From Candidatus Zipacnadia bacterium (lineage in GTDB: Bacteria > Armatimonadota > Zipacnadia > Zipacnadales > UBA11051): a stretch of DNA of 38,160 nt. Of the stretch, positions 21,828 through 38,160 are shown piece after piece. The translations under genes were made by a program, and so were the position numbers. Under the pieces are notes generated by a model. That model was not told the origin of the DNA. It saw nothing but the letters and a program-made list of their open reading frames with translations, and made no database searches. Numbering within the stretch: position 1 is the stretch's first letter; the number at the start of each line of letters is the position of its first letter. Location of the stretch: positions 1 through 38,160 of the forward strand of contig JALGTY010000010.1 of NCBI GenBank assembly GCA_029821145.1, in the 5' to 3' direction.

Positions 21828-24800
21828 CTAATCCAATACGCGCAGGTAGTGGGTGGCGGTGCGGCCTGAGGCCAGCTCCGTCACCCGGATCGTCCATATC
21901 CCCGGCGTGTCGTTGGGAGCGATGTCGAGGTCAATTTGTAGCTGCCCGTCTTTGGCACCATAGTAGCCGCTGAATTCGGCCGGCTGGCCCTCAGAATCCA
22001 CTATTTCGACCTGTATCGGAACGATTGCATCAATGGGCCGGCCGGCATCGTCCACAACGGCTATCTGCAAGGGCAGAGCGTCCGGGCGTCTGATGGCGGT
22101 GCGCACTTTGATTTCGACCTGCGCGATGGCCCGGTCGGTAATCATGAATACGCGGCCCTGGCAGGGGTCCAAATGGACCGGGATTTTGATGCGCTTCGAG
22201 CTCTTCTCTACATTCACTTCGCGATGGGCGACGAGGTCATAGACAAAGCCGCCATCGCGGTTGACCACGAGCTTGGCATCCGAGGGCAGACCGTTCTCCA
22301 TAACTAAGCCGTGGTGGCCGACGTAGTTGCCGTACTCGCGCAGGTCGTTGATGGCGAAAACGTAATCGGTGGTGCCGTACTGGCGACAGCGGGTAATGAC
22401 GTTAGGATTGGATGAGTCTCGATAGCGGCGGTAGTGTGGGTCCAGCTCTTCGCGCAGTGCCGAGGCTTTGTGCAGCATGATGCCCCTGGCTTTGTCAGCC
22501 TGCTTGGGCCGGACATGGCTTTTCAGCAGGATGTCGGGCTTGATGGCGGGGGTCAGGTTCTCGTCCCCGATGATGATTCCGCCTCTTTGTTGGAATGCCT
22601 CGATTCTCTCAGCCATGGACGCGGTGATGACATCGCAGTCAACCATGACCAGGACCTTGAACTGGTCGAGGCCGTCGCGGGCGATGGTTTCGTCATAAAT
22701 GACCTGAGGCTGGAGTTGCGCATAGTGGAGGATGAGATAGGCGTCGCCGGCCCAGCCGCCGTTCCAGCCATAGGTGCCGCGCCGGTTGAACATCTGCGAG
22801 GCGAAGCTCCCCAGGAAGGCGACCTCGGCTTTGCGGTCAGGGACCTGCATCAGCGCCGGACCAAGCGGCTCGAGGACGGTATTGACCAAGCGGCGCAGCT
22901 CGTCCTTCGTGACCGGGTTGGTGTAGCGGTAGCCCCTGTGGGTGCCTGTGTAAACCAATGACTGCCAACCGTGGTACATGATTCCCTGGATTGGTCGGGC
23001 CATCTTGGTCCAGAAGGCCTCGCGCAGGTGCATCGGGGCGATGGTGATGAAGGCTGCGTCCGGTATCTCCTTTTCCCAGCGAGCGCGGTACTTAGACTTC
23101 TCAGCCTCGCCTGTGGCGGTGGGGCCGTGGTCATGGTCATCGAAGAAGGCGTCAGGGACCTGAGCCTCGGTGCCGGGCATCGGTGCGGTCTGGCCCCGAT
23201 ACCAGATGATTTGGGTCATTTTCATGACCTGCTGGTCGGTCTCGGCCCCGGCCGCCATGGCAAAGAGCTCGTCGGTGCACATCCCGATGCGGATCGGATC
23301 GGGATATGAATATGTCCAATGCGAAAGATAGTCCACCTCACCGCCACTGCCCCAGGCGCTGGCGACGCGGCAGGCAGGATCGTGGAAGGTCCAGAAGCGG
23401 TCGTGCGTGGCGGATTTGAGGCCGCGGTGCACGGCGGTGTGGAGTGCGTTCCAGCCGTCGCCCTGTTTCCAGAACCATTTGTAATAGACATACAAGGGAT
23501 AGTCATCGGGTATGACGCGGTCGGCGGGGAATTCCTTGAGGCCGCTGTAGAGCACACCGTTCTTTATGCCGACCTCTTCGGGGATGTCAAATCCGGCGAA
23601 GTCTCTGAAGGCGGCCTTGTCCATGTCTGAGAAAGAAGTCTGTGAGGCGCCGCGGACCTCTGTATGGATCATTGCCCCCGCAAAGGCGGGGAACTCACCA
23701 TAGGTCTGAGCCGCCGAGGCGCCGACGTTGTAGCAGAACTGCTGAATTTCAGGATACAATCCATTGACATCTTCAAGATGCTTGCCGTCACGGCCAACGC
23801 GCTGGAACTGCTCCTTGCTCTTGGCCCAGCGGCCGGGTGATAGACCGATCATAACACGCAGATCGCTGGCCAGAGCCGCATCGAGCATCGCCTTGGTGGC
23901 AGCTACACGGGCATCGCTCTGAGCCTGGGTTGGTTCGCCAGCGTCCCATACCTTCGCGAAATCAAGCCCGGCACCCAGGCAATGGGTGAAGCCGAGGTGC
24001 TTGAGCCGGTCCATCTCCTTGATGACATTGTCAACGCCGCCGACGCCCCACATGACCACCGGCATGCGATGGGGTAGAGGGCGGGGGACGATAGTGATCG
24101 GGAATTGCTCCTCGCTGGTATAGGGATTGTCGCCGGGTATCTCCATGCGCGCATGGACCTGGTATTCGGCGGGCCGCAGGGACATATCAAGCGGGTATTG
24201 GACGATGTGGGTGGCTCCGGGCTCAAGGTCCGGCAGCTCTACTCGGGTTGCTTGCGCCTCGGCGACGGCAAAGCGGCAGACTGCGCCGCTGAGGGTGTCA
24301 CGCAGCATGTTGGTGACAGCGAATTGCAGCGGCGGGGCATCTTCCATGCGGATGTACGTTGTGCGGTCGGACTTGAAAGCAAACACAGCAGGCCGAAATT
24401 CAAGCACCCCGTTGGATATGCGCACCTGATCCAGAAAGCCCGGGAATCCGTGGTAGAGGCTGCCGACGCGGTCGCCGATGGTGAGGTTGTGTCTGCCAGG
24501 CGCGATCGAGGCGCGCTCCGGGTGGCTCGTGCCGCCCAACGCAACCCCGTCGCGGTAGAATCTGCCGTTGCCCTCAGCATCATAAGTGAAAGCAACGTGG
24601 TACCAGCGTCCTATCTCATATTCTGCGGAAGTTGATGTGTATGACGCGGAGTCGTCGCCGTAGCCAAGGACGGCCCTCAGTCTTCGCTTACCAGCATTGT
24701 CGGCGCTGCCCAGGATAATCTGGTAGTCAGTGTGAGCCACGTACCTCTTGTCAATGAGGAAAGCGTCCGGATAGTCTTCCAGCTCCGGCTTGGCCTTGAT

Positions 24801-25154
24801 CCACATTTCGATGGTGAAAGCGCCCTTGGGCGTGAGTGCGGGGTTGCTCTGCACCTCGATGCCATGCTTAACATCCTCGTCTGGCCAACCTCGGAAGGAC
24901 TCCAGGCACCCCCCAAAGCGGCCATCAGCGTTGAACTGCGCACCCTTCAGTTGCAGATCGAAACCCTTGTCGCCGGCGTCGGTGGCTTCCGCGCCCTCGT
25001 CGAAGTTCCACAGCGCGATTACATGCTGACCGGTGGCGTCATCGGCCTGATAGGCGGCCTGCCACGGCTCGGCGAGTTTCACCGGCGCCACCTGTGCCAT
25101 TCCAAAACTATACATTAGCATTACCCCCAGAATTGCAGTGGCCGTTATTCGCAT
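21828..25154 (-). CDS. Secreted LamG-domain protein with GH42/beta-galactosidase-like TIM-barrel and GATase-like regions
   Basis: Signal peptide MRITATAILGVMLMYSFGMAQ (start 25154, not the track's 25307); ALWNFDEGAEATDAGDKGFDLQLKGA...FTIEMWIKAKP...GRWYHVAFTYDAEGNGRFYRDG LamG pattern; FKVLVMVDCDVITASMAERIEAFQQRGGIIIGDE GATase-like. Confidence 0.78.
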   Translation of the reverse strand: MRITATAILGVMLMYSFGMAQVAPVKLAEPWQAAYQADDATGQHVIALWNFDEGAEATDAGDKGFDLQLKGAQFNADGRFGGCLESFRGWPDEDVKHGIEVQSNPALTPKGAFTIEMWIKAKPELEDYPDAFLIDKRYVAHTDYQIILGSADNAGKRRLRAVLGYGDDSASYTSTSAEYEIGRWYHVAFTYDAEGNGRFYRDGVALGGTSHPERASIAPGRHNLTIGDRVGSLYHGFPGFLDQVRISNGVLEFRPAVFAFKSDRTTYIRMEDAPPLQFAVTNMLRDTLSGAVCRFAVAEAQATRVELPDLEPGATHIVQYPLDMSLRPAEYQVHARMEIPGDNPYTSEEQFPITIVPRPLPHRMPVVMWGVGGVDNVIKEMDRLKHLGFTHCLGAGLDFAKVWDAGEPTQAQSDARVAATKAMLDAALASDLRVMIGLSPGRWAKSKEQFQRVGRDGKHLEDVNGLYPEIQQFCYNVGASAAQTYGEFPAFAGAMIHTEVRGASQTSFSDMDKAAFRDFAGFDIPEEVGIKNGVLYSGLKEFPADRVIPDDYPLYVYYKWFWKQGDGWNALHTAVHRGLKSATHDRFWTFHDPACRVASAWGSGGEVDYLSHWTYSYPDPIRIGMCTDELFAMAAGAETDQQVMKMTQIIWYRGQTAPMPGTEAQVPDAFFDDHDHGPTATGEAEKSKYRARWEKEIPDAAFITIAPMHLREAFWTKMARPIQGIMYHGWQSLVYTGTHRGYRYTNPVTKDELRRLVNTVLEPLGPALMQVPDRKAEVAFLGSFASQMFNRRGTYGWNGGWAGDAYLILHYAQLQPQVIYDETIARDGLDQFKVLVMVDCDVITASMAERIEAFQQRGGIIIGDENLTPAIKPDILLKSHVRPKQADKARGIMLHKASALREELDPHYRRYRDSSNPNVITRCRQYGTTDYVFAINDLREYGNYVGHHGLVMENGLPSDAKLVVNRDGGFVYDLVAHREVNVEKSSKRIKIPVHLDPCQGRVFMITDRAIAQVEIKVRTAIRRPDALPLQIAVVDDAGRPIDAIVPIQVEIVDSEGQPAEFSGYYGAKDGQLQIDLDIAPNDTPGIWTIRVTELASGRTATHYLRVLD

Positions 25155-25204
25155 CGGAAACCACTCTCCAGTTATCAAGTGTGATATGCCAGCAATCGGG
25201 CAGT

Positions 25205-26132
25205 CTAGTCGGCGGGGCCGGTTGCAAAGATAGTTATCGGCTGCCATATTCCGCCGGCCATCGCGGTGTTCATCGCGCACACCGTTATCTGATTGTCCTG
25301 GCCCCACTTCAGCAGGCCGGTCACGTCCAGGCGGAACGGCTTGTCCCAGCCACTGGGGCCGATGTCATGCTCGCCGGCATACTCGCCATTGACCCAGACC
25401 CACGCGCACTCGTCCACGCCGCCAAAACGTATCAGGGCATTGGTCCCGCCAGGATTGTCGGGCAGCGTGATCGTGCGGCGATACCACGCCGTGCCGATGT
25501 AATCGTAGCCGAAGTGACCCCAAGCCTTCTCGATGCCGATGTCATCCCAGCCGCTGTCGTCGAGGTCGAGCTTGAACCAGCCGGCGTCCTTGCCGACGCG
25601 GTTGGGGTCGAGCTTGAACTTCCAGCCGTCGCGCGGCACCATCATTTCAGCGACCACAGCCAGGTACTGATCCGTCGCGCTGACCGCCGCCTGCTGCACC
25701 GCCGCGTCCTCGTCCTTGACGGCAGCGGTGAGTAGATCCAGAACTGCGGGCGACCGCGGTCGAATAGCAGCGAGGGCATATACCGCACCCTGCCGCACAA
25801 GCGGATGCTCGTCATCGAGCGCCTCCGCCAGAGGCACTACCGCGTGCGGGCCGTAACCGCCAAGAACTAACGCCGCGTTCCGTCGCACCATGAAATCAGG
25901 GCTCTTGAGGGCGGTAGTCAGGGCGGGTAGTACACCATTTTCAAAGCGCCCGAGACACAGCACTGGCCTGAGGGCCGCGGGCGGCGGTCTCGATCAAGGC
26001 CATTCTACGGGCGGCGGGATTGGGGGACCGCAAGTCGGACTGTGCGGCGAACGTGCCCGTCACCAGCAGGAGGCAGATGACCAACGCGAAGAGGCGCACC
26101 CAAGGGCATAGTGAGACAACCGGCTTGTTCAT
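25205..26132 (-). pseudogene. Apparently frameshifted secreted HEAT-repeat + GH2-lectin (jelly-roll) protein
   Basis: One frame (26132 to stop 25941): MNKPVVSLCPWVRLFALVICLLLVTGTFAAQSDLRSPNPAARRMALIETAARGPQA. The other frame (from about 25963): VLCLGRFENGVLPALTTALKSPDFMVRRNAALVLGGYG...AWYRRTITLPDNPGG...CAWVWVNGEYAGEHDIG. Together they read as one protein: signal peptide, HEAT repeats, GH2 sugar-binding domain. Confidence 0.65.
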
Positions 26133-27141
26133 TGTGGCTACCTTGATCGGAACTGGCCGACTTGGCCACGTGCTCGCGCAAGGCATGGGTGAGCTCGTGC
26201 AGTTCGAAGACATAACCGAACATGGTGCTGGTTTTCCAAAGCGCATACTCTAGATTCAACTCGCCGACCGCGGATTCCTTGTTCTCTATCGCCACGCAGC
26301 CGCCGCGCACCGCCGAGCACATGTAGCCCTTGCGGCTCATGTCAGCCATGCCGCAAGGCGAGAACCACAAGCACCAGTTCAGCGCCCAGCCGGTGTAGAT
26401 GATGTGATCTATGCCGCGATTCTTTAGCAGGCGGTGCAATTGCCACGGGTGCAGTGCGATGATGTCGTCGCCCTGCGGGATGAGTTCTTCGGGCAGTGTG
26501 AATTTGTGGGGCGGGACATTGGGCGGGTTCTGACGCGGCAGGTCGAATACGTCTCTGGTGTGCTGGGCCTTCCACGGCGGCTTTCCCTCGATGAGATCCT
26601 GGTCAGGCGGCGGGGGATCGCCGGCTTCCTTGACGCACCTGTCCCAGATGGGAGCATCTGTATCGAATCTCTTGCCCATGCCGACGTGTGCGACCAGCAT
26701 GCCGGCATTACGGGCGGCCTGAATGAGTCTGGGCATGCGGAAGGTTACCACGTCCATGGTACGAGGCACCCATTCGACGGTGCCCAAGTAGGCGGGGTTC
26801 TGGCAGTCAGGGCCGAATTCGCTATCAGGTGTCAGGCCGCGGTCGGGGAAGTGCATCAAGGCCAGGCAGCAGCGTGAGAGGTCCAGTTGGCGGACCTCGG
26901 AGTCCCAGCCATTGAAGCCGAGGGCGGCCGCATCCCATTTGGAGAAGTCGGCGGGGTAGTGGCGATACATGTGCCACGGCAAGCTGATCGTTGTCGTGTT
27001 GGCCTCTTTGGGCTTCTGAGTGTCAGCCGTCTGTGGCTTGGCTGCCCTGCTTGGTCCCCCGCCCCTGTAGGTGGCGCCGACGGTGGCAAACAGCAAAGCA
27101 AAGCAGAGCGCGAAAAGAAGTTTTGTAAGTCCCTTAGACAT
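26005..27141 (-). CDS. Isochorismatase-fold (cysteine hydrolase-like) protein, secreted paralog 1
   Basis: Start at 27141 MSKGLTKLLFALCFALLFATVG (signal peptide); GIDHIIYTGWALNWCLWFSPCGM matches the isochorismatase nucleophile region. The last ~50 aa run out of frame over the next gene's signal peptide. Confidence 0.78.
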   Translation of the reverse strand: MSKGLTKLLFALCFALLFATVGATYRGGGPSRAAKPQTADTQKPKEANTTTISLPWHMYRHYPADFSKWDAAALGFNGWDSEVRQLDLSRCCLALMHFPDRGLTPDSEFGPDCQNPAYLGTVEWVPRTMDVVTFRMPRLIQAARNAGMLVAHVGMGKRFDTDAPIWDRCVKEAGDPPPPDQDLIEGKPPWKAQHTRDVFDLPRQNPPNVPPHKFTLPEELIPQGDDIIALHPWQLHRLLKNRGIDHIIYTGWALNWCLWFSPCGMADMSRKGYMCSAVRGGCVAIENKESAVGELNLEYALWKTSTMFGYVFELHELTHALREHVAKSASSDQGSHNEQAGCLTMPLGAPLRVGHLPPAGDGHVRRTVRLAVPQSRRP

Positions 27142-27178
27142 TGGTAGCTCTCCGATCGTTTCGTACGGCTGCTGACAT

Positions 27179-28066
27179 TCACGCATCTGTGTCTTGGACG
27201 GCGTATTGGCGTAGGGCATGGGTGAACTCGTGCAAGTCGAAGATGTAGCCGAACATGGTGCTGGTCTTCCATAGGGCGTATTCCAGATTCAACTCGCCGA
27301 CCGCCGATTCCCGGTTCTCTATCGCAACGCAGCCACCGCGCACCGCCGAGCACATGTAGCCCTTGCGGCTCATGTCAGACATGCCGCAGGGGGAGAACCA
27401 CAAGCACCAGTTCAGCGCCCAGCCGCAGTAGATGATGTGATCTATGCCTCGATTGTTCAGCAGGCGGTGCAATTGCCAGGGGTGCTGTGCGACGATGTCA
27501 TCGCCCTGTGGCAGGAAGATATCTGGGAGGGAGAATTCGTGTGGCGGGACCTTCTTAGGCCCCTTGCGCGGCAGATCGAATACATCGCGCTGATGTTTGG
27601 CTTTCCACTTCGGGGCTCTGTCGGCCAACACGTCTTCGTCGGGTGGGGGCGGGTCACCGGCCTCGTGAGAACACTTTTCCCAGATTGCACCTTGGGTATA
27701 TGGCGGGCCGCTGACGCCCACCTGCGCGACCTGCAGACCGGCATCGCGGGCCGCTTGTATCAGGCGTGGCATGCGAGAAGTCACTACGTCCATCAAACGA
27801 GGCACCCACTCGATAGTGCCGAGAGCGTTCGGATTCGGGCAATCCGGCCCCCACTCCTTATCAGGGGTGAGGCCGGCATCGGTGAAGTGCATCAGCGCCA
27901 GACAGGTGCGGGCGAGGTCCAAGTCGCGCACCTTCGAATCCCATCCCTTGAAGCCGGCGGCAGCAGCATCCCAGAGCGAGAAATCCGCCGGGTAATGGCG
28001 GTACATATGCCAGGGAACCTGAATAGTCATCTTCTTTGCCGGTTTGGTCTTTTTCTTTCGGGTCAT
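27179..28066 (-). CDS. Isochorismatase-fold protein, cytoplasmic-looking paralog 2
   Basis: MTRKKKTKPAKKMTIQVPWHMYRHYPADFSLWDAA...; same motifs as paralog 1 without a signal peptide. The start at 28066 is preferred over the track's 28303. Confidence 0.8.
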   Translation of the reverse strand: MTRKKKTKPAKKMTIQVPWHMYRHYPADFSLWDAAAAGFKGWDSKVRDLDLARTCLALMHFTDAGLTPDKEWGPDCPNPNALGTIEWVPRLMDVVTSRMPRLIQAARDAGLQVAQVGVSGPPYTQGAIWEKCSHEAGDPPPPDEDVLADRAPKWKAKHQRDVFDLPRKGPKKVPPHEFSLPDIFLPQGDDIVAQHPWQLHRLLNNRGIDHIIYCGWALNWCLWFSPCGMSDMSRKGYMCSAVRGGCVAIENRESAVGELNLEYALWKTSTMFGYIFDLHEFTHALRQYAVQDTDA

Positions 28067-28226: not shown

Positions 28227-29351
28227 ATGCCAGAGACCGAATCTGACAAGATCTTCCCGACCGATGTGCTGTCGAAGAGAGAGCGGGTGGAGAGGACACT
28301 CAACCTCGAGCCGGTGGACCGCGTGGCGATTCATGAGCAGCTTAGCTGGAACCCCGGCGTTATCTCGATGTACACAGGTAGAGAAATCGAAGGGTTCAAC
28401 TACACGTACAAGGACATCTGCGAAGTCATCAGGCAAACCCTCGACACTTGCTTTCAAGCCCACGACCCACTCGGAACTGACTTGATAACAGACGAAGACG
28501 GCTTCGAGATACAGAACGATAACTGGAACTGGTGGATAGCGAAGCGGCCGTTTGATGATGTTGCGGGTGCCCGCGAGTATCTGCTTCGCAAGACCGACCA
28601 GATGCAGAACGCTGAAATTGACGATGAGCAGGTGCGCGAAGAATTCTATCAGCGGCAGAACGAACTGAAAAGGCTCGTCGGCGGGACGGTAATTATCCCC
28701 GGGGCCCGGTTCGGCCTGGAAGAATGCTGGTGGGCGCTGGGGCTGACGCTTTTTTCCTACCTGTATGCAGACGATCCCGGTGTCGTCTCCGCATACATCG
28801 AGACCTATGCGAGAAGTGAAATCCGCCGGATCCATGCCATCGCCGACCGCGACTTTTCGCCTGTGGCCTGCATCTTCGCCGACTGGGGCACCAAGCAGGG
28901 CCCGATGTTCAGCCCCGAGTTTCTGCACAAAGAACACTTCCCCTACCTACGGCAGGTGATCGAAACCTGGCACAGCCACGGCATCAAAGTACTGTATCAC
29001 AATGATGGCAACTGGAAGAAACTCATCCCGGATCTTGTGGACTGCGAAGTGGACGGGTTCAGTTGTACGGAGCCATCGGTCGGCATGGATATCGTTGAGC
29101 TGAAGAACGCCTGGCCGGGGCATGCCTGGATGCGCGGGATAGACGGCGTTGACCTGATGGAACGCGGCACGCCTGAGCAAGTGCGCCGAGAAGTGCACAG
29201 GCAAATCGAGGAAACCAACGCTCTGCAGACCGGAGGGCTGTTGATTGGCACTGCCAGCGAAATCAACCCGCCAATTAGGCCCGAGAACTTCCGCGCCATG
29301 ATCGAGGCAGTGGGGGAACTGCGGAACCCGGACTTCGCCTCTGACAAGTGA
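28227..29351 (+). CDS. Uroporphyrinogen-decarboxylase-like (URO-D superfamily) protein 1
   Basis: LSKRERVERTLNLEPVDRVAIHEQLSW; KVLYHNDGNWKKLIPDLVDCEVDGFSCTEP; NPPIRPENFRAMIEAV. ATG at 28227 with RBS aggagggag (track start 28044). Confidence 0.82.
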   Translation: MPETESDKIFPTDVLSKRERVERTLNLEPVDRVAIHEQLSWNPGVISMYTGREIEGFNYTYKDICEVIRQTLDTCFQAHDPLGTDLITDEDGFEIQNDNWNWWIAKRPFDDVAGAREYLLRKTDQMQNAEIDDEQVREEFYQRQNELKRLVGGTVIIPGARFGLEECWWALGLTLFSYLYADDPGVVSAYIETYARSEIRRIHAIADRDFSPVACIFADWGTKQGPMFSPEFLHKEHFPYLRQVIETWHSHGIKVLYHNDGNWKKLIPDLVDCEVDGFSCTEPSVGMDIVELKNAWPGHAWMRGIDGVDLMERGTPEQVRREVHRQIEETNALQTGGLLIGTASEINPPIRPENFRAMIEAVGELRNPDFASDK

Positions 29352-29484
29352 GGGGCGGTGAGCCGATGAGAGGCTGGCCGGCAGCGGGTGCAGGGCCGAT
29401 GAAGGTTGAGCGACAAGGCTGTAGAAGTACACGGAGTAAGTCATGGGCTCTTCACACGAAGTTGCTCTCCGGAGGGGCAAAGGG

Positions 29485-30270
29485 ATGGCCAATAATAGCG
29501 TGAAATTCTCAGTGTTTACCAAGCCGTGGAAGATGGAGTTGAATGAGTTGGGGAAGTTCGTCAGCGGGCTGGGATTCGATGGAATCGAGTTGCCCGTGCG
29601 GGATGAATATCAAGTGCCGCCGGACAAAGTGGAACAACTGCCGGCGGCGGCGAAGGTGTTGGCTGACTACGGCGTCGAAATTTGCAGCATCGCCGGGCCC
29701 ACCGATGAAAGGACCATCGCAGCGTGCGCTGAGGCAGGGGTGCCGACCATTCGGGTCTGTGTATCGGTCGGTGAGGACGGATACCTGGCGACGGAAGCGC
29801 GGGTGCAGAAGGAATACGACGAACTGGTGCCGATGCTGGACAGTTACGGCGTGCGGATCGGCGTGCAGAACCACTGCAACAACTGTGTCGCCAATGCGGT
29901 GGGCACACTGCGGCTGATCGAGAAGTACGATCCGAAGCATGTCGGCGCTGTGTGGGACCCGGCTCACTGCGCGCTGGACGGAGAGATCCCCGAGATTGCA
30001 GTGGATGTGCTTTGGTCGCACCTGTGCATGGTGAATCTGAAGAACGGCATCTGGCAGCGCACCAACGGGCCGGAGGCGGAAGTTGCTGAATGGCAATCGT
30101 ACTGGACCAGTGGGCGACAAGGGCTGGCGTCGTGGCCTCGGGTGGCGGAACTGCTTATGCAACGCGGCTGGCAGGGCGTTGTGTGCCTGTGTGCCGAGTA
30201 TAGTGACCATGACGAGGTTGAACGGCTGATCGCTGAAGATATGGCTTTCGCGAGGCCGCTGTTTGAATGA
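29485..30270 (+). CDS. Sugar phosphate isomerase/epimerase (xylose-isomerase-like TIM barrel)
   Basis: ELGKFVSGLGFDGIELPVRDEYQVPPDKVEQLPAAAKVLADYGVEICSIAGP...VGAVWDPAHCALDGE. Start MANNSVKF at 29485 with RBS-like ggagggg. Confidence 0.88.
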   Translation: MANNSVKFSVFTKPWKMELNELGKFVSGLGFDGIELPVRDEYQVPPDKVEQLPAAAKVLADYGVEICSIAGPTDERTIAACAEAGVPTIRVCVSVGEDGYLATEARVQKEYDELVPMLDSYGVRIGVQNHCNNCVANAVGTLRLIEKYDPKHVGAVWDPAHCALDGEIPEIAVDVLWSHLCMVNLKNGIWQRTNGPEAEVAEWQSYWTSGRQGLASWPRVAELLMQRGWQGVVCLCAEYSDHDEVERLIAEDMAFARPLFE

Positions 30271-30282
30271 GGAGGAGGATTG

Positions 30283-31251
30283 ATGAGCCTGACCGACAAA
30301 GTATGCGTAGCCATGATTGGGGCCGGTGGTATGGCCAACAGTGTGCACTACCCATCGCTGGCATCGTTCGATGATGTGGAAATTGCAGCGATTTGCGACC
30401 TGAGCGAAGAGCGCCTCAACGAAACGGCCGACAAATACGAGGTGCAGGCCCGCTACGCGGATTACCAGAAAATGATCGAAGAGGTAGCGCCCGACGCGGT
30501 CTATGCCATAGGCCAGCCGCATTTCATGTACGACGTGTGGGTGTGGTGCCTGCAGCAGGGGCAGAATCTCTATATCGAAAAGCCGATGGGGCTTTCCATC
30601 CATCAGGCTCGCAATCTTGCCTGGCTGGCGGAGCAGAACGATTGTATCACGCAGGTGAGCTTCCAGCGGCGCTGCAACCCGCTGCTGGTCAAGCTGCACC
30701 AGGAATGCCTCAAGCGAGGGCCGATGCTGCACGCGGTGTGCCAGTTCTACAAATGCGCCACCACACCGATGCTGGGGGCGCGCGATCACATGATGGATGA
30801 TGGTGTCCATGCCATTGATACGCTGCGGTGGATGTGTGGTGGGGAAGTCCTGCGCATCCAGAGCGTAACGCGACAGATAGATGTGCCCGACATTAACTTC
30901 ATCATGGCCATGCTGGATTTCGACAACGGCGCTACCGGCATAATGATGACAAGCTGGGCAAGCGGGCGGCGCGTTTTTCGGGTGGAGATGCATGCGCCCG
31001 GTATCTGCGCAGAGGGCAATCCGGAGACTAACGGATATGTTTATGCCGATGGCGACACCGAGGGCGTCGAATATGACGCGAAAGAGGTTGCAGGAAGCGA
31101 CCAGGCGTACGTTTACGGAGGCTTTCAAGCGAAGAGCCGGGATTTCATAGATGCCGTAAAGAAGGGCCGACAGCCGCAATCCAGCTTCTCCGACGCCATC
31201 AATACTATGGAAGTGGCGGAAAGAATCCTGGCGCAGGCGCTGCTGGGTTAG
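30283..31251 (+). CDS. Gfo/Idh/MocA family oxidoreductase 1
   Basis: VCVAMIGAGGMANSVHYPSLASFDDVEIAAICDLSEERLNETADKY; NLYIEKPMGLSIHQARNL; VSFQRRCNPLL. Confidence 0.93.
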   Translation: MSLTDKVCVAMIGAGGMANSVHYPSLASFDDVEIAAICDLSEERLNETADKYEVQARYADYQKMIEEVAPDAVYAIGQPHFMYDVWVWCLQQGQNLYIEKPMGLSIHQARNLAWLAEQNDCITQVSFQRRCNPLLVKLHQECLKRGPMLHAVCQFYKCATTPMLGARDHMMDDGVHAIDTLRWMCGGEVLRIQSVTRQIDVPDINFIMAMLDFDNGATGIMMTSWASGRRVFRVEMHAPGICAEGNPETNGYVYADGDTEGVEYDAKEVAGSDQAYVYGGFQAKSRDFIDAVKKGRQPQSSFSDAINTMEVAERILAQALLG

Positions 31252-31313
31252 ACCGCCCCAGACATTGGAGAATGTGAACGGACGCCTAACACTATCGAAG
31301 TGAGGTAATCGAG

Positions 31314-32384
31314 ATGGCAAAGTATCGGTCGTTGCTGCTGGGCTGCGGGCCCAGAGCCAGAGAGCACGTGGATGTATATCGAGAAATCCCCAATATGGAG
31401 ATGGTGGCCTGCTGTGACCTGATCGAGGACCGGCGGGAGGAATTCAGGAGTACGTTTGGGATTCCTGAGGCTTACGATGACTATGAGAAAGCACTGGCCG
31501 AGGTGCAGCCGGACGTCGTGCACGCAGTGACTCAACCGGCGCGACGGGTCTGGGAGGCCGAATGTGCCGCTGCTGCCGGTGTCAAGGCGGTGATATTGGA
31601 AAAGCCGATGGCCGTTATGCCCTCGGAAATAGTCGCTCTGGACGAAATCCAGCAGCGCACCGGGATGGAGATGATCGTCAACTGCCAGCGGCGCTACTTC
31701 CCGCAGTTTCGCGATGGTGTTATCCGCGACATCGTGGCAGAAAAGATCGGAGATTTGTACTTCGTCCGCGCCAGTGCCAAGGGCAACTCGATGTCCATGG
31801 GGCCGCACATGATGGACCTGCTGATGCTGTTTCTGGATGAAGCGCAGCCGGAGTCGGTATGGGCGATGGGCTATGATATCGTGGAGGAGGGCTATCAGGC
31901 GTACCACCGCTCGCCGGAGCGGCTGCTGGCTGAATACTGGTTCCCCAATGATGTGCGTGTCATCTTCGACTGTGACGCGGATTGCCTGGGCACGCCCGGG
32001 GAGGAATCGTTCTGGATGCATCTGCATTTCGACTTCCTGGGTAGCAACGGTCGCCTGTATCTAACCCAGAACAAAGGCTACTGGTATCAGAGCGAGGGGA
32101 TGGCTGAGCCGGAGCATGGTGAGAGCAGTTGGGATAGCCAGGGCTTGGCCGGACAGCGGGACTTCACGGCGGCGGTGGCGGAGGCCCTCGACGGTGGCAA
32201 GCCGCACCTGAACCGGTTTGAGGTCGGCAAGGCGGCCTTCAATGCACTCATCGGTGCGCAGCAGTCCATTTACGAAGGGCGCAGAATTGATTTTCCGCAT
32301 ACCTTCACCGATGAACAATGGACGGAGTTGCGGGAAGAGCTGAAGGCGGATCAGGCGCGCGGCACAAGGCTGCACAGAAGCTGA
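31314..32384 (+). CDS. Gfo/Idh/MocA family oxidoreductase 2
   Basis: KYRSLLLGCGPRAREHVDVYREIPNMEMVACCDLIEDRREEFRSTFGI; VILEKPMAVMPSEIVALDE; VNCQRRYFPQF. Confidence 0.92.
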   Translation: MAKYRSLLLGCGPRAREHVDVYREIPNMEMVACCDLIEDRREEFRSTFGIPEAYDDYEKALAEVQPDVVHAVTQPARRVWEAECAAAAGVKAVILEKPMAVMPSEIVALDEIQQRTGMEMIVNCQRRYFPQFRDGVIRDIVAEKIGDLYFVRASAKGNSMSMGPHMMDLLMLFLDEAQPESVWAMGYDIVEEGYQAYHRSPERLLAEYWFPNDVRVIFDCDADCLGTPGEESFWMHLHFDFLGSNGRLYLTQNKGYWYQSEGMAEPEHGESSWDSQGLAGQRDFTAAVAEALDGGKPHLNRFEVGKAAFNALIGAQQSIYEGRRIDFPHTFTDEQWTELREELKADQARGTRLHRS

Positions 32385-36024: not shown

Positions 36025-38160
36025 TCAGCCGGTCACATCCGGCGGAATGGTCAGGTCGTCTCTGTCCAGCAATGTTTCCCCGTCGAGCTCCACCTTCAGG
36101 TGCGGCGATTCGCCGGCATCGCCTGCCAAGTTCAGCATGACCTGGTGGGCTTTGTCATTGGCATTGCACGAGAATACAACTAGCCGGTTGCTAACGATAG
36201 TGGAGACATCCTCTGCGTGAGTCTCGCCCAACTCCAAGAGCGTGACCAGCACAACCTCATCCGTGGGCGGGATATTGGCCTGGATGTAGGGGTTGTACTT
36301 CTCGGCTCCGGGGTAGGTAACATATTCCACAGGCACCCTCGCCGGGTGCAGGAAGCGGATGCGCATTTGCTTGTCAGCCTTGACGATCTCGACATCGCCT
36401 GGCGTAGCCGGCTCTCCAACCAGCATCTCCTTGCCAGCCCGCGTCACCTGCGCCATGCCTCCCCATGAGTGCGGATGCACCAGCCACTGGAAGCTCCGCG
36501 CCTGGCCTGCCGCCTTCAGGTCATCAACCATCAGGAGCAGGTCCGGCTTGAGATAGATGAGGTGGCGATGAGCGCGGCTGAGCAGTGAACTGCTGTAGGC
36601 GGCAGTCGCGTCGCCCATCGCATAGTCAACGTGGCGAGTCGTCGCGAAGTAGGGAATATCGCCCCGCTTGTGGGTCTGCATCTTGCCGTCAACGAGTATG
36701 CAGTTGTGGCCAACTGCGCCGCGCGCAAACTCCCGCAGAGCTCCGCCCAGCGACGAAGCATAGCCGCAATCCATCGCCACCGCCGTGGCGCTCCGGTAGA
36801 TCAGGAAGTTATTCTGATCCATGTGGGCATGGCCCTGACCGGAGGAGCTACACTGCAGCGCGATGAATGTGCCATCCTGCTCCCAGCCCGAACGCAGCGA
36901 TGCCCATCCCACGCGCGGGAAGATATCCCCCGGCCGTTGTGGGTCGCGCTCGATTACCGGCGTCTGCGGATCGAAGGCAATGAACTTGTAGTGATCCCAT
37001 CTCACGTAGCCGACCGTCTTCGTCTCCCTCAGATACCAGCCGGCATTGCCGTCGTGGGTGTATGCCCCCAGCAGCGTCAGCGGGAAATGCCATACCACGT
37101 ACTGGGCCGAACCGCCGGCGTCTGCAAACCATGCCTGGGTATGCCAATCGTTGGCCAGAAACGCTATCCCGAAGCGGGCCATCACCGGCAGGAATGGGTG
37201 GCCGAGATGGTCCACGCCGAAGTTGCGCTTGAGAGAGTCGGCAAGGAAAATGAGCAGTCCGTAGGCCCAGGAATCATAGCCTTGGCCCTCCGTCCGGTGA
37301 CTGTTAGCGCGCTTGTCCCAGTAATCGAGCACGCAATCCTCGGCCAGCCGCACGCACGTTGCCGCACCCGCTGTCTCACCAAGCGTAGCCACTGCGCACA
37401 GCCCCAGCGCCGTCGTCCACAGCGCGTAGCCGTTACTGTTGCCAATGCCCGGGGACAACGCCTCATGCAGCGGAACCAGCACATTCCTCTGGAGCGCCTC
37501 AGCCACAAACGCCCGCTCATCCTCGCTCAGCAGGTCGTAGCACAGGTCATAGGCGAAGCAGGCCGCTATCGAGATGTTGCCGATCTCCAGGCTCGGCCGG
37601 TTGTTGACCGGGTCGTACCATTGCGGCCACTCGCATATCGCCAGCAGCAGCTCTTTCGCGCGGTTGCCATAGCCCGCGTTTCCAGTCGCCGCATAGACCA
37701 ACGACAGGCTCTTGAGGCGCTCGGAGAGTGCTCCGGCAAGAGGGTTCCAGCTCAGACCGCCACCCTCTTGCGGCATCTCCTGCGGCGGCCACGGCAGCGA
37801 GCTCTTGCCGAACTTGATTTCCGTCTCTTGCAGGTACTTGTCGGCGCGTGCGCGGATGACTGCAAGCAGTGATGCCGGCGACGCCCCATAGACACCCTCC
37901 GTAGTGTCAGCCGCTCGTGCCGGCAGCTTAGCCGCAATTTCCGGACTCACGATAGCCCGCGGATGACCGCTGATCTGCCCCGCCAGCGGCTTCTCACCCG
38001 CAAATATCTCCGCCGTCGTCATCGCGCGCCTCAAGACCAGGTCATCCAGTTGCAGAGCTCCGCTCGGAAGCATCCCCGACAGGGCAACCGTCGCCTTCAC
38101 CGCAGCTTCGGGAGCCACAGTCTGAGTTGATATCTGCGCCCACTCCTCACCCTTCGGCGC
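36025..38160 (-). CDS. Heparinase II/III-like protein with N-terminal carbohydrate-binding-like region (5' end off the window)
   Basis: Stop at 36025. Open to the right edge (track Met at 38118 is probably internal). LMDQNNFLIYRSATAVAMDCGYASSLGG..., GQGHAHMDQNNF and alpha/alpha-toroid-like ERLKSLSLVYAATGNAGYGNRAKELLLAICEWPQW. Confidence 0.82.
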   Translation of the reverse strand, partial: APKGEEWAQISTQTVAPEAAVKATVALSGMLPSGALQLDDLVLRRAMTTAEIFAGEKPLAGQISGHPRAIVSPEIAAKLPARAADTTEGVYGASPASLLAVIRARADKYLQETEIKFGKSSLPWPPQEMPQEGGGLSWNPLAGALSERLKSLSLVYAATGNAGYGNRAKELLLAICEWPQWYDPVNNRPSLEIGNISIAACFAYDLCYDLLSEDERAFVAEALQRNVLVPLHEALSPGIGNSNGYALWTTALGLCAVATLGETAGAATCVRLAEDCVLDYWDKRANSHRTEGQGYDSWAYGLLIFLADSLKRNFGVDHLGHPFLPVMARFGIAFLANDWHTQAWFADAGGSAQYVVWHFPLTLLGAYTHDGNAGWYLRETKTVGYVRWDHYKFIAFDPQTPVIERDPQRPGDIFPRVGWASLRSGWEQDGTFIALQCSSSGQGHAHMDQNNFLIYRSATAVAMDCGYASSLGGALREFARGAVGHNCILVDGKMQTHKRGDIPYFATTRHVDYAMGDATAAYSSSLLSRAHRHLIYLKPDLLLMVDDLKAAGQARSFQWLVHPHSWGGMAQVTRAGKEMLVGEPATPGDVEIVKADKQMRIRFLHPARVPVEYVTYPGAEKYNPYIQANIPPTDEVVLVTLLELGETHAEDVSTIVSNRLVVFSCNANDKAHQVMLNLAGDAGESPHLKVELDGETLLDRDDLTIPPDVTG

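Follow-up and report, generated by a model that had tools for sequence, protein, structure and literature searches.

The Asp-Lys-Cys triad is regarded as the hallmark of a large superfamily of hydrolases. In its canonical members (PncA, RutB, BiuH, TrtA, and YecD), the Asp stands at the end of strand 1 and the Lys in the loop preceding the nucleophile strand. In RutB, the ureidoacrylate amidohydrolase of E. coli, the triad is Asp24, Lys133, and Cys166. In isochorismatases, which have the same fold, the Asp is retained and a vinyl ether is hydrolysed with no need of the Cys, and in nicotinamidases the end of strand 2 bears metal ligands. The triad consists of Asp24-Lys129-Cys162 in TrtA (PMC7948467) and of Asp36-Lys142-Cys175 in BiuH, in which replacement of Asp36 by Ala, Asn, Gln, or Glu was not tolerated (His was not among the residues tried) and Lys142 could be exchanged for Arg alone, at an about 25-fold slower rate (PMC5806882). 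Thus, neither helper of the Cys is dispensable in BiuH, and the exchange described below cannot work without other rearrangement. The oxyanion hole of BiuH is formed by main-chain nitrogens, the substrate-binding Gln215 comes from the adjacent monomer across the dimer interface, and Thr179, at Cys+4, belongs to a set of nine active-site residues conserved in the canonical family (PMC5806882).

The window, that is, the whole stretch of 38,160 nucleotides analysed here, forms a single contig of the draft genome G000 (4.3 Mb). An earlier note, made from the letters alone, had described a tandem pair of isochorismatase-fold paralogs in it, at positions 26005-28066. Both open reading frames were found on the minus strand, and their products are 74% identical. 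P0002 (27182-28066; 27179..28066 as a feature) comprises 295 residues without a signal peptide. P0001 lies just downstream (26008-27141; 26005..27141 as a feature); a start at 27141 provides it with the N-terminal signal peptide MSKGLTKLLFALCFALLFATVGA, and a longer frame begins at 27219. The lower boundary of the pair has to be corrected. The stop codon of P0001 and ~30 bases (26117-26146, minus strand) are absent from the window and present in the orthologue of the sister genome G002, which has no tail. Without its stop, the P0001 frame continues into the next gene, and the stretch from 26005 to about 26146 is a read-through tail. Since a short deletion took out the natural stop, the true C-terminus is near 26146. 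Nei-Gojobori dN/dS values of 0.13 and 0.14 against the sister-genome orthologues, and of 0.18 between the two paralogues, reveal purifying selection, which argues against decay of the pair. This selection and the 119 homologues described below exclude a degenerate frame with a chance resemblance, and recent decay of one gene is excluded because the residue change is clade-wide.

The AF2 model of P0002 (pLDDT 89.6, pTM 0.89) has a Rossmann-like fold matching solved members of the isochorismatase-like fold. A Foldseek search with the model returned RutB first (E 3e-9, probability 1.00, TM ~0.5 by query and 0.65 by target). In the PDB, a profile of 49 homologues matched biuret hydrolase (E 1e-11) and RutB (6e-11). 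The fold-level placement is therefore secure, and we conclude that the nearest relatives of P0001 and P0002 among the isochorismatase-fold cysteine hydrolases are found in the RutB group. Established family models hardly recognise them. Pfam PF00857 (Isochorismatase) matched around the nucleophile only, with 21.7 and 20.8 bits, under the curated cut-off of 27, and the RutB (TIGR03614) and BiuH (NF050097) equivalogs, for which the cut-offs are 378 and 370 bits, scored <21. With nothing above an NCBIfam cut-off, the subfamily has no describing model in Pfam or NCBIfam. Annotation that relies on the motifs of the fold (DxQ, K, C) will overlook or mislabel such proteins: no match to a Pfam isochorismatase model was obtained in the G000 genome at E 0.001, despite three encoded members. 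The third of these (L006; G000:C271:8431-9141) is remote, with 25% identity, and falls into the LHCW His-type group.

The active-site columns were read against RutB and 18 canonical sequences of the same phylum (19 canonical sequences in all). Both proteins retain the nucleophile region (GWALNWCLWFSPCGM) with an intact G-x-A-x-N-x-C loop, and the predicted nucleophile, Cys221 of P0002 (27404..27406; all features in this paragraph are on the minus strand) and Cys257 of P0001 (26371..26373), aligns with the RutB nucleophile. In place of the DxQ motif, both read LALMHF(P/T)D, which puts His60 of P0002 (27887..27889) and its counterpart His97 of P0001 (26851..26853) on the position of the catalytic Asp. 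The segment DDI(I/V)A(L/Q)HPWQL, noted before for its missing Lys, reflects a larger change: the RutB stretch KPRYSGFFNT (K-x-x-Y-S-x-F-..-T) is deleted as a block and not merely mutated, DDIVAQHPW of P0002 abuts QLHRLL, and the junction of the deletion lies at residues 192-199 (VAQHPWQL; 27470..27493). Ser225 of P0002 (27392..27394) occupies Cys+4. At position 115, P0001 has a His (His152; 26686..26688), which is replaced by Gln in P0002. The PPPPD...RDVFDLPR insertion and the WHMYRHYPADF N-terminus, which had likewise been pointed out, are present in both proteins, but PPPPD and WHMYRHYPADF do not extend to the family at large; an alignment of homologues recovered a relaxed form of WHMYRHYPADF in 14/14 close members and in no other member of the clade.

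Judged by two named relatives in the group (L002 and L003), the phylum is Armatimonadota. Of 291 genomes searched in it, 88 had matches, and 119 distinct clade members, all from this phylum, were aligned with the 19 canonical sequences. Although the members are highly diverged (about 25-35% identity), each of the 119 lacks the Lys loop and keeps the Cys of the superfamily loop G-x-x-x-[DN]-x-C. His115 is conserved in 115/119, compared with one of the 19 canonical sequences. Column 60 divides the clade into 83 His-type and 35 Asp-type proteins, one sequence being incomplete there, and column 225 (Cys+4) follows this division: all 19 canonical sequences have Thr or Ser, the Asp-type proteins have Arg (29) or Lys (6) without exception, and 82/83 His-type proteins have Ser (64) or Ala (18), the remaining one having Glu. 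Given that Cys+4 is a recognised active-site position, a cation appears to have been relocated in the Asp-type branch and the ionic pair to have been replaced by His in the His-type branch. In a tree from which columns 60 and 186-199 had been left out, the clade was set apart from the canonical members (SH-aLRT 99), the deep branching order being unsure because of long branches. The quick tree requires two changes to His, whereas a single His clade had the higher likelihood and was not rejected (AU p 0.855); polyphyletic convergence of His is not required, as the single clade fits no worse. With only one or two independent events, the contrast of Asp with Arg/Lys and His with Ser/Ala is a structural rather than a statistical argument. 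Our literature search found no paper describing a Lys-less clade. As to a mobile origin, the matches among plasmid records all came from E. coli and Klebsiella (e.g., RutB, 25% identity), none of them a close homologue, and viral contigs yielded a single weak match (33%); plasmid and phage sources were both dismissed.

Conservation and fold support the earlier suggestion that the chemistry of these proteins may differ from the canonical one. With moderate confidence, and on the basis of sequence comparisons, we propose that P0001 and P0002 are active isochorismatase-fold Cys-His hydrolases serving polysaccharide catabolism, whose triad would have been rebuilt in two steps. In the first step, the Lys-bearing loop was presumably lost, and the Asp-type branch apparently moved the cation to Cys+4. 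In the second, the His-type branch, to which both window proteins belong, would have exchanged Asp for His, with Ser or Ala at Cys+4, so that a neutral His replaces the ion pair. His60 may then act as general base and acid for Cys221, as in Cys-His hydrolases. Because the GxAxNxC oxyanion loop is kept, a covalent acyl-enzyme is expected.

The two proteins could instead be pseudo-enzymes that retain the fold to bind a ligand or a partner, which we consider unlikely but worth weighing: two of the three canonical catalytic residues are gone, losses of this kind inactivate BiuH (PMC5806882), and P0002 has lost His115 as well. However, invariance of Cys221 across such diverged members, together with His60 in 83/83 and the strong selection on the window pair, speaks for a working site, and proteins that only bind would have no need to retain the nucleophile.

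Conventional chemistry might also persist with substitute residues. Lys267 (close group), Arg267 (middle group), or Arg243 would then stand in for Lys, either within one subunit or across to its neighbour, and Glu250 or an Asp for the catalytic Asp. Some residues have a fitting distribution. In the close group of 14 members, and only there, Asp28, Asp143, Asp190, Asp231, and Lys267 are invariant; the next, middle group of His-types has Arg in place of Lys267 in 43/44, which gives Lys/Arg267 in 57/58 of the close and middle members. Among all His-types, Glu250 occurs in 83/83 and Arg243 in 79/83, and Gln198 is nearly invariant. Moreover, the Gln contributed by the adjacent BiuH monomer sits in roughly the 267 stretch (PMC5806882), and a cation from the partner subunit may thus be possible. 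Nevertheless, the third His-type group carries Tyr/Phe267 and yet has His60, and Arg243 and Glu250 do not track the exchange of Asp for His, as most Asp-type members retain them. The altered triad would be contradicted by a canonical Asp and Lys contributed by another part of the protein; a check by conservation found no Asp or Lys column shared by all 83 His-type proteins. We regard substitution of this kind as rather improbable. A metallohydrolase-like or redox site, with a metal ion coordinated by His60, His115, and Cys221, is very unlikely: the clade as a whole has gained His115 on strand 2, but this residue is missing from P0002, from the P0002 orthologue, and from one paralogue in G006, and the ligand positions of nicotinamidases are not conserved in the clade.

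The distribution of His115 also bears on the second copies. The tandem pair was found in G000 and G002, one close member each was seen in G003 and G004 of the same genus, and G006 possesses a separate second copy of its own. P0002 is the additional copy, which the window genome shares with one sister genome, and it has neither the signal peptide nor His115. Within the close group, His115 is absent only from P0002, its orthologue, and the second copy of G006, an indication that the role of second copies has shifted.

A role in polysaccharide catabolism is suggested by the gene neighbourhood. Downstream of P0001, the minus strand of the window encodes a HEAT-repeat/GH2 sugar-binding (GH2-N) protein (25208..26132) and, as the last gene of the putative operon, a large exported LamG (concanavalin-like)/MG2 protein (21828..25307). 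The order of hydrolase gene(s), HEAT/GH2-N gene, and large LamG gene is common to G000, G002, and G004. The HEAT/GH2-N gene is frameshifted here and intact in relatives: its two frames (25941-26132 and 25205-25963) both match the intact orthologue L026 10948-11928, with ~20 residues missing, and either a mutation or faulty assembly could explain the split. Further neighbours across the loci comprise GH20, sulfatase, Gfo/Idh/MocA, AP_endonuc_2, GH2 sugar-binding, and LamG domains. On the plus strand of the window, a divergent cluster (28257-32384) encodes a URO-D-like protein, AP_endonuc_2, and two Gfo/Idh/MocA oxidoreductases.

A heparinase II/III-type gene (36028..38160, minus strand) lies 7.7 kb from the pair and runs off the window. 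The genomes of this genus contain an unusually large set of such genes (G000 53, G002 60, G003 70, G004 30). At nine loci from six family-level groups, a heparinase II/III-type lyase gene is the immediate co-directional neighbour; from gene density, 0.22 adjacencies would be expected, against the nine observed, over the 24 genomes whose lyase genes were counted, although this comparison overstates the case because the genomes were partly picked after such neighbours had been seen. In G144, the sole heparinase II/III-type gene lies 16 bp upstream of the His-type gene, and in G135, one of two directly adjoins it. The commonest lyase partner is nearest by sequence to PL17 alginate lyases (E 6e-5). 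Most loci have no heparinase neighbour; genus f13 has a histidine kinase there. Genes were called as simple longest ORFs, which missed the His-type gene in 11/55 loci. We conclude that the heparinase association is real in a subset of loci and absent in others. The literature search found no paper joining isochorismatase, heparinase, and polysaccharide.

Under the Cys-His hydrolase reading, the proteins would probably hydrolyse an amide, carbamoyl, or ester group carried by a sugar or a breakdown product, and P0001, given its signal peptide, is probably exported. A hint of amide chemistry near some members comes from L163 3163-3984 and L184 5751-9635: an M55 D-aminopeptidase and a dimethylformamidase-beta-like protein are found among the neighbours, and a sulfatase lies on the opposite flank. 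That the His-type clade carries out a reaction new to the fold, for example on the unsaturated (vinyl-ether) uronate ends that the heparinase II/III-type lyases encoded next to it produce, His60 donating the proton where isochorismatases use Asp, is conceivable but highly improbable.

A clade in which one helper is lost and the other partly replaced, with a matching difference at Cys+4, is a natural experiment in triad rebuilding. Compared with RutB (PDB 8bkd/8bln), the window proteins have the fold, the GxAxNxC loop, and the C-terminal helix segment in common, but they combine His and Cys with a missing loop where RutB has Asp, Lys, Cys, and KPRYSGFFNT; in addition, they have a longer N-terminus and a mid-protein insertion. 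With BiuH and TrtA (PDB 5bk6, 6xix, 6xjm), of which 6xjm was the best PDB profile match (E 1e-11), they share the Cys nucleophile and the oxyanion-loop Gly, whereas the two helpers essential in BiuH, Asp36 and Lys142, are both absent. PhzD/EntB-type isochorismatases have the fold alone in common with them (Foldseek 1nf9, E 9e-6), and in contrast to these enzymes, the clade has an invariant Cys and a variable Asp. A further comparison is with the Asp-type Lys-less homologues (e.g., L113, L062, and L116), which belong to the same clade, share the deleted Lys loop and the conserved His115 and Cys221, and differ in having Asp60 with Arg/Lys at Cys+4 instead of His60 with Ser/Ala.
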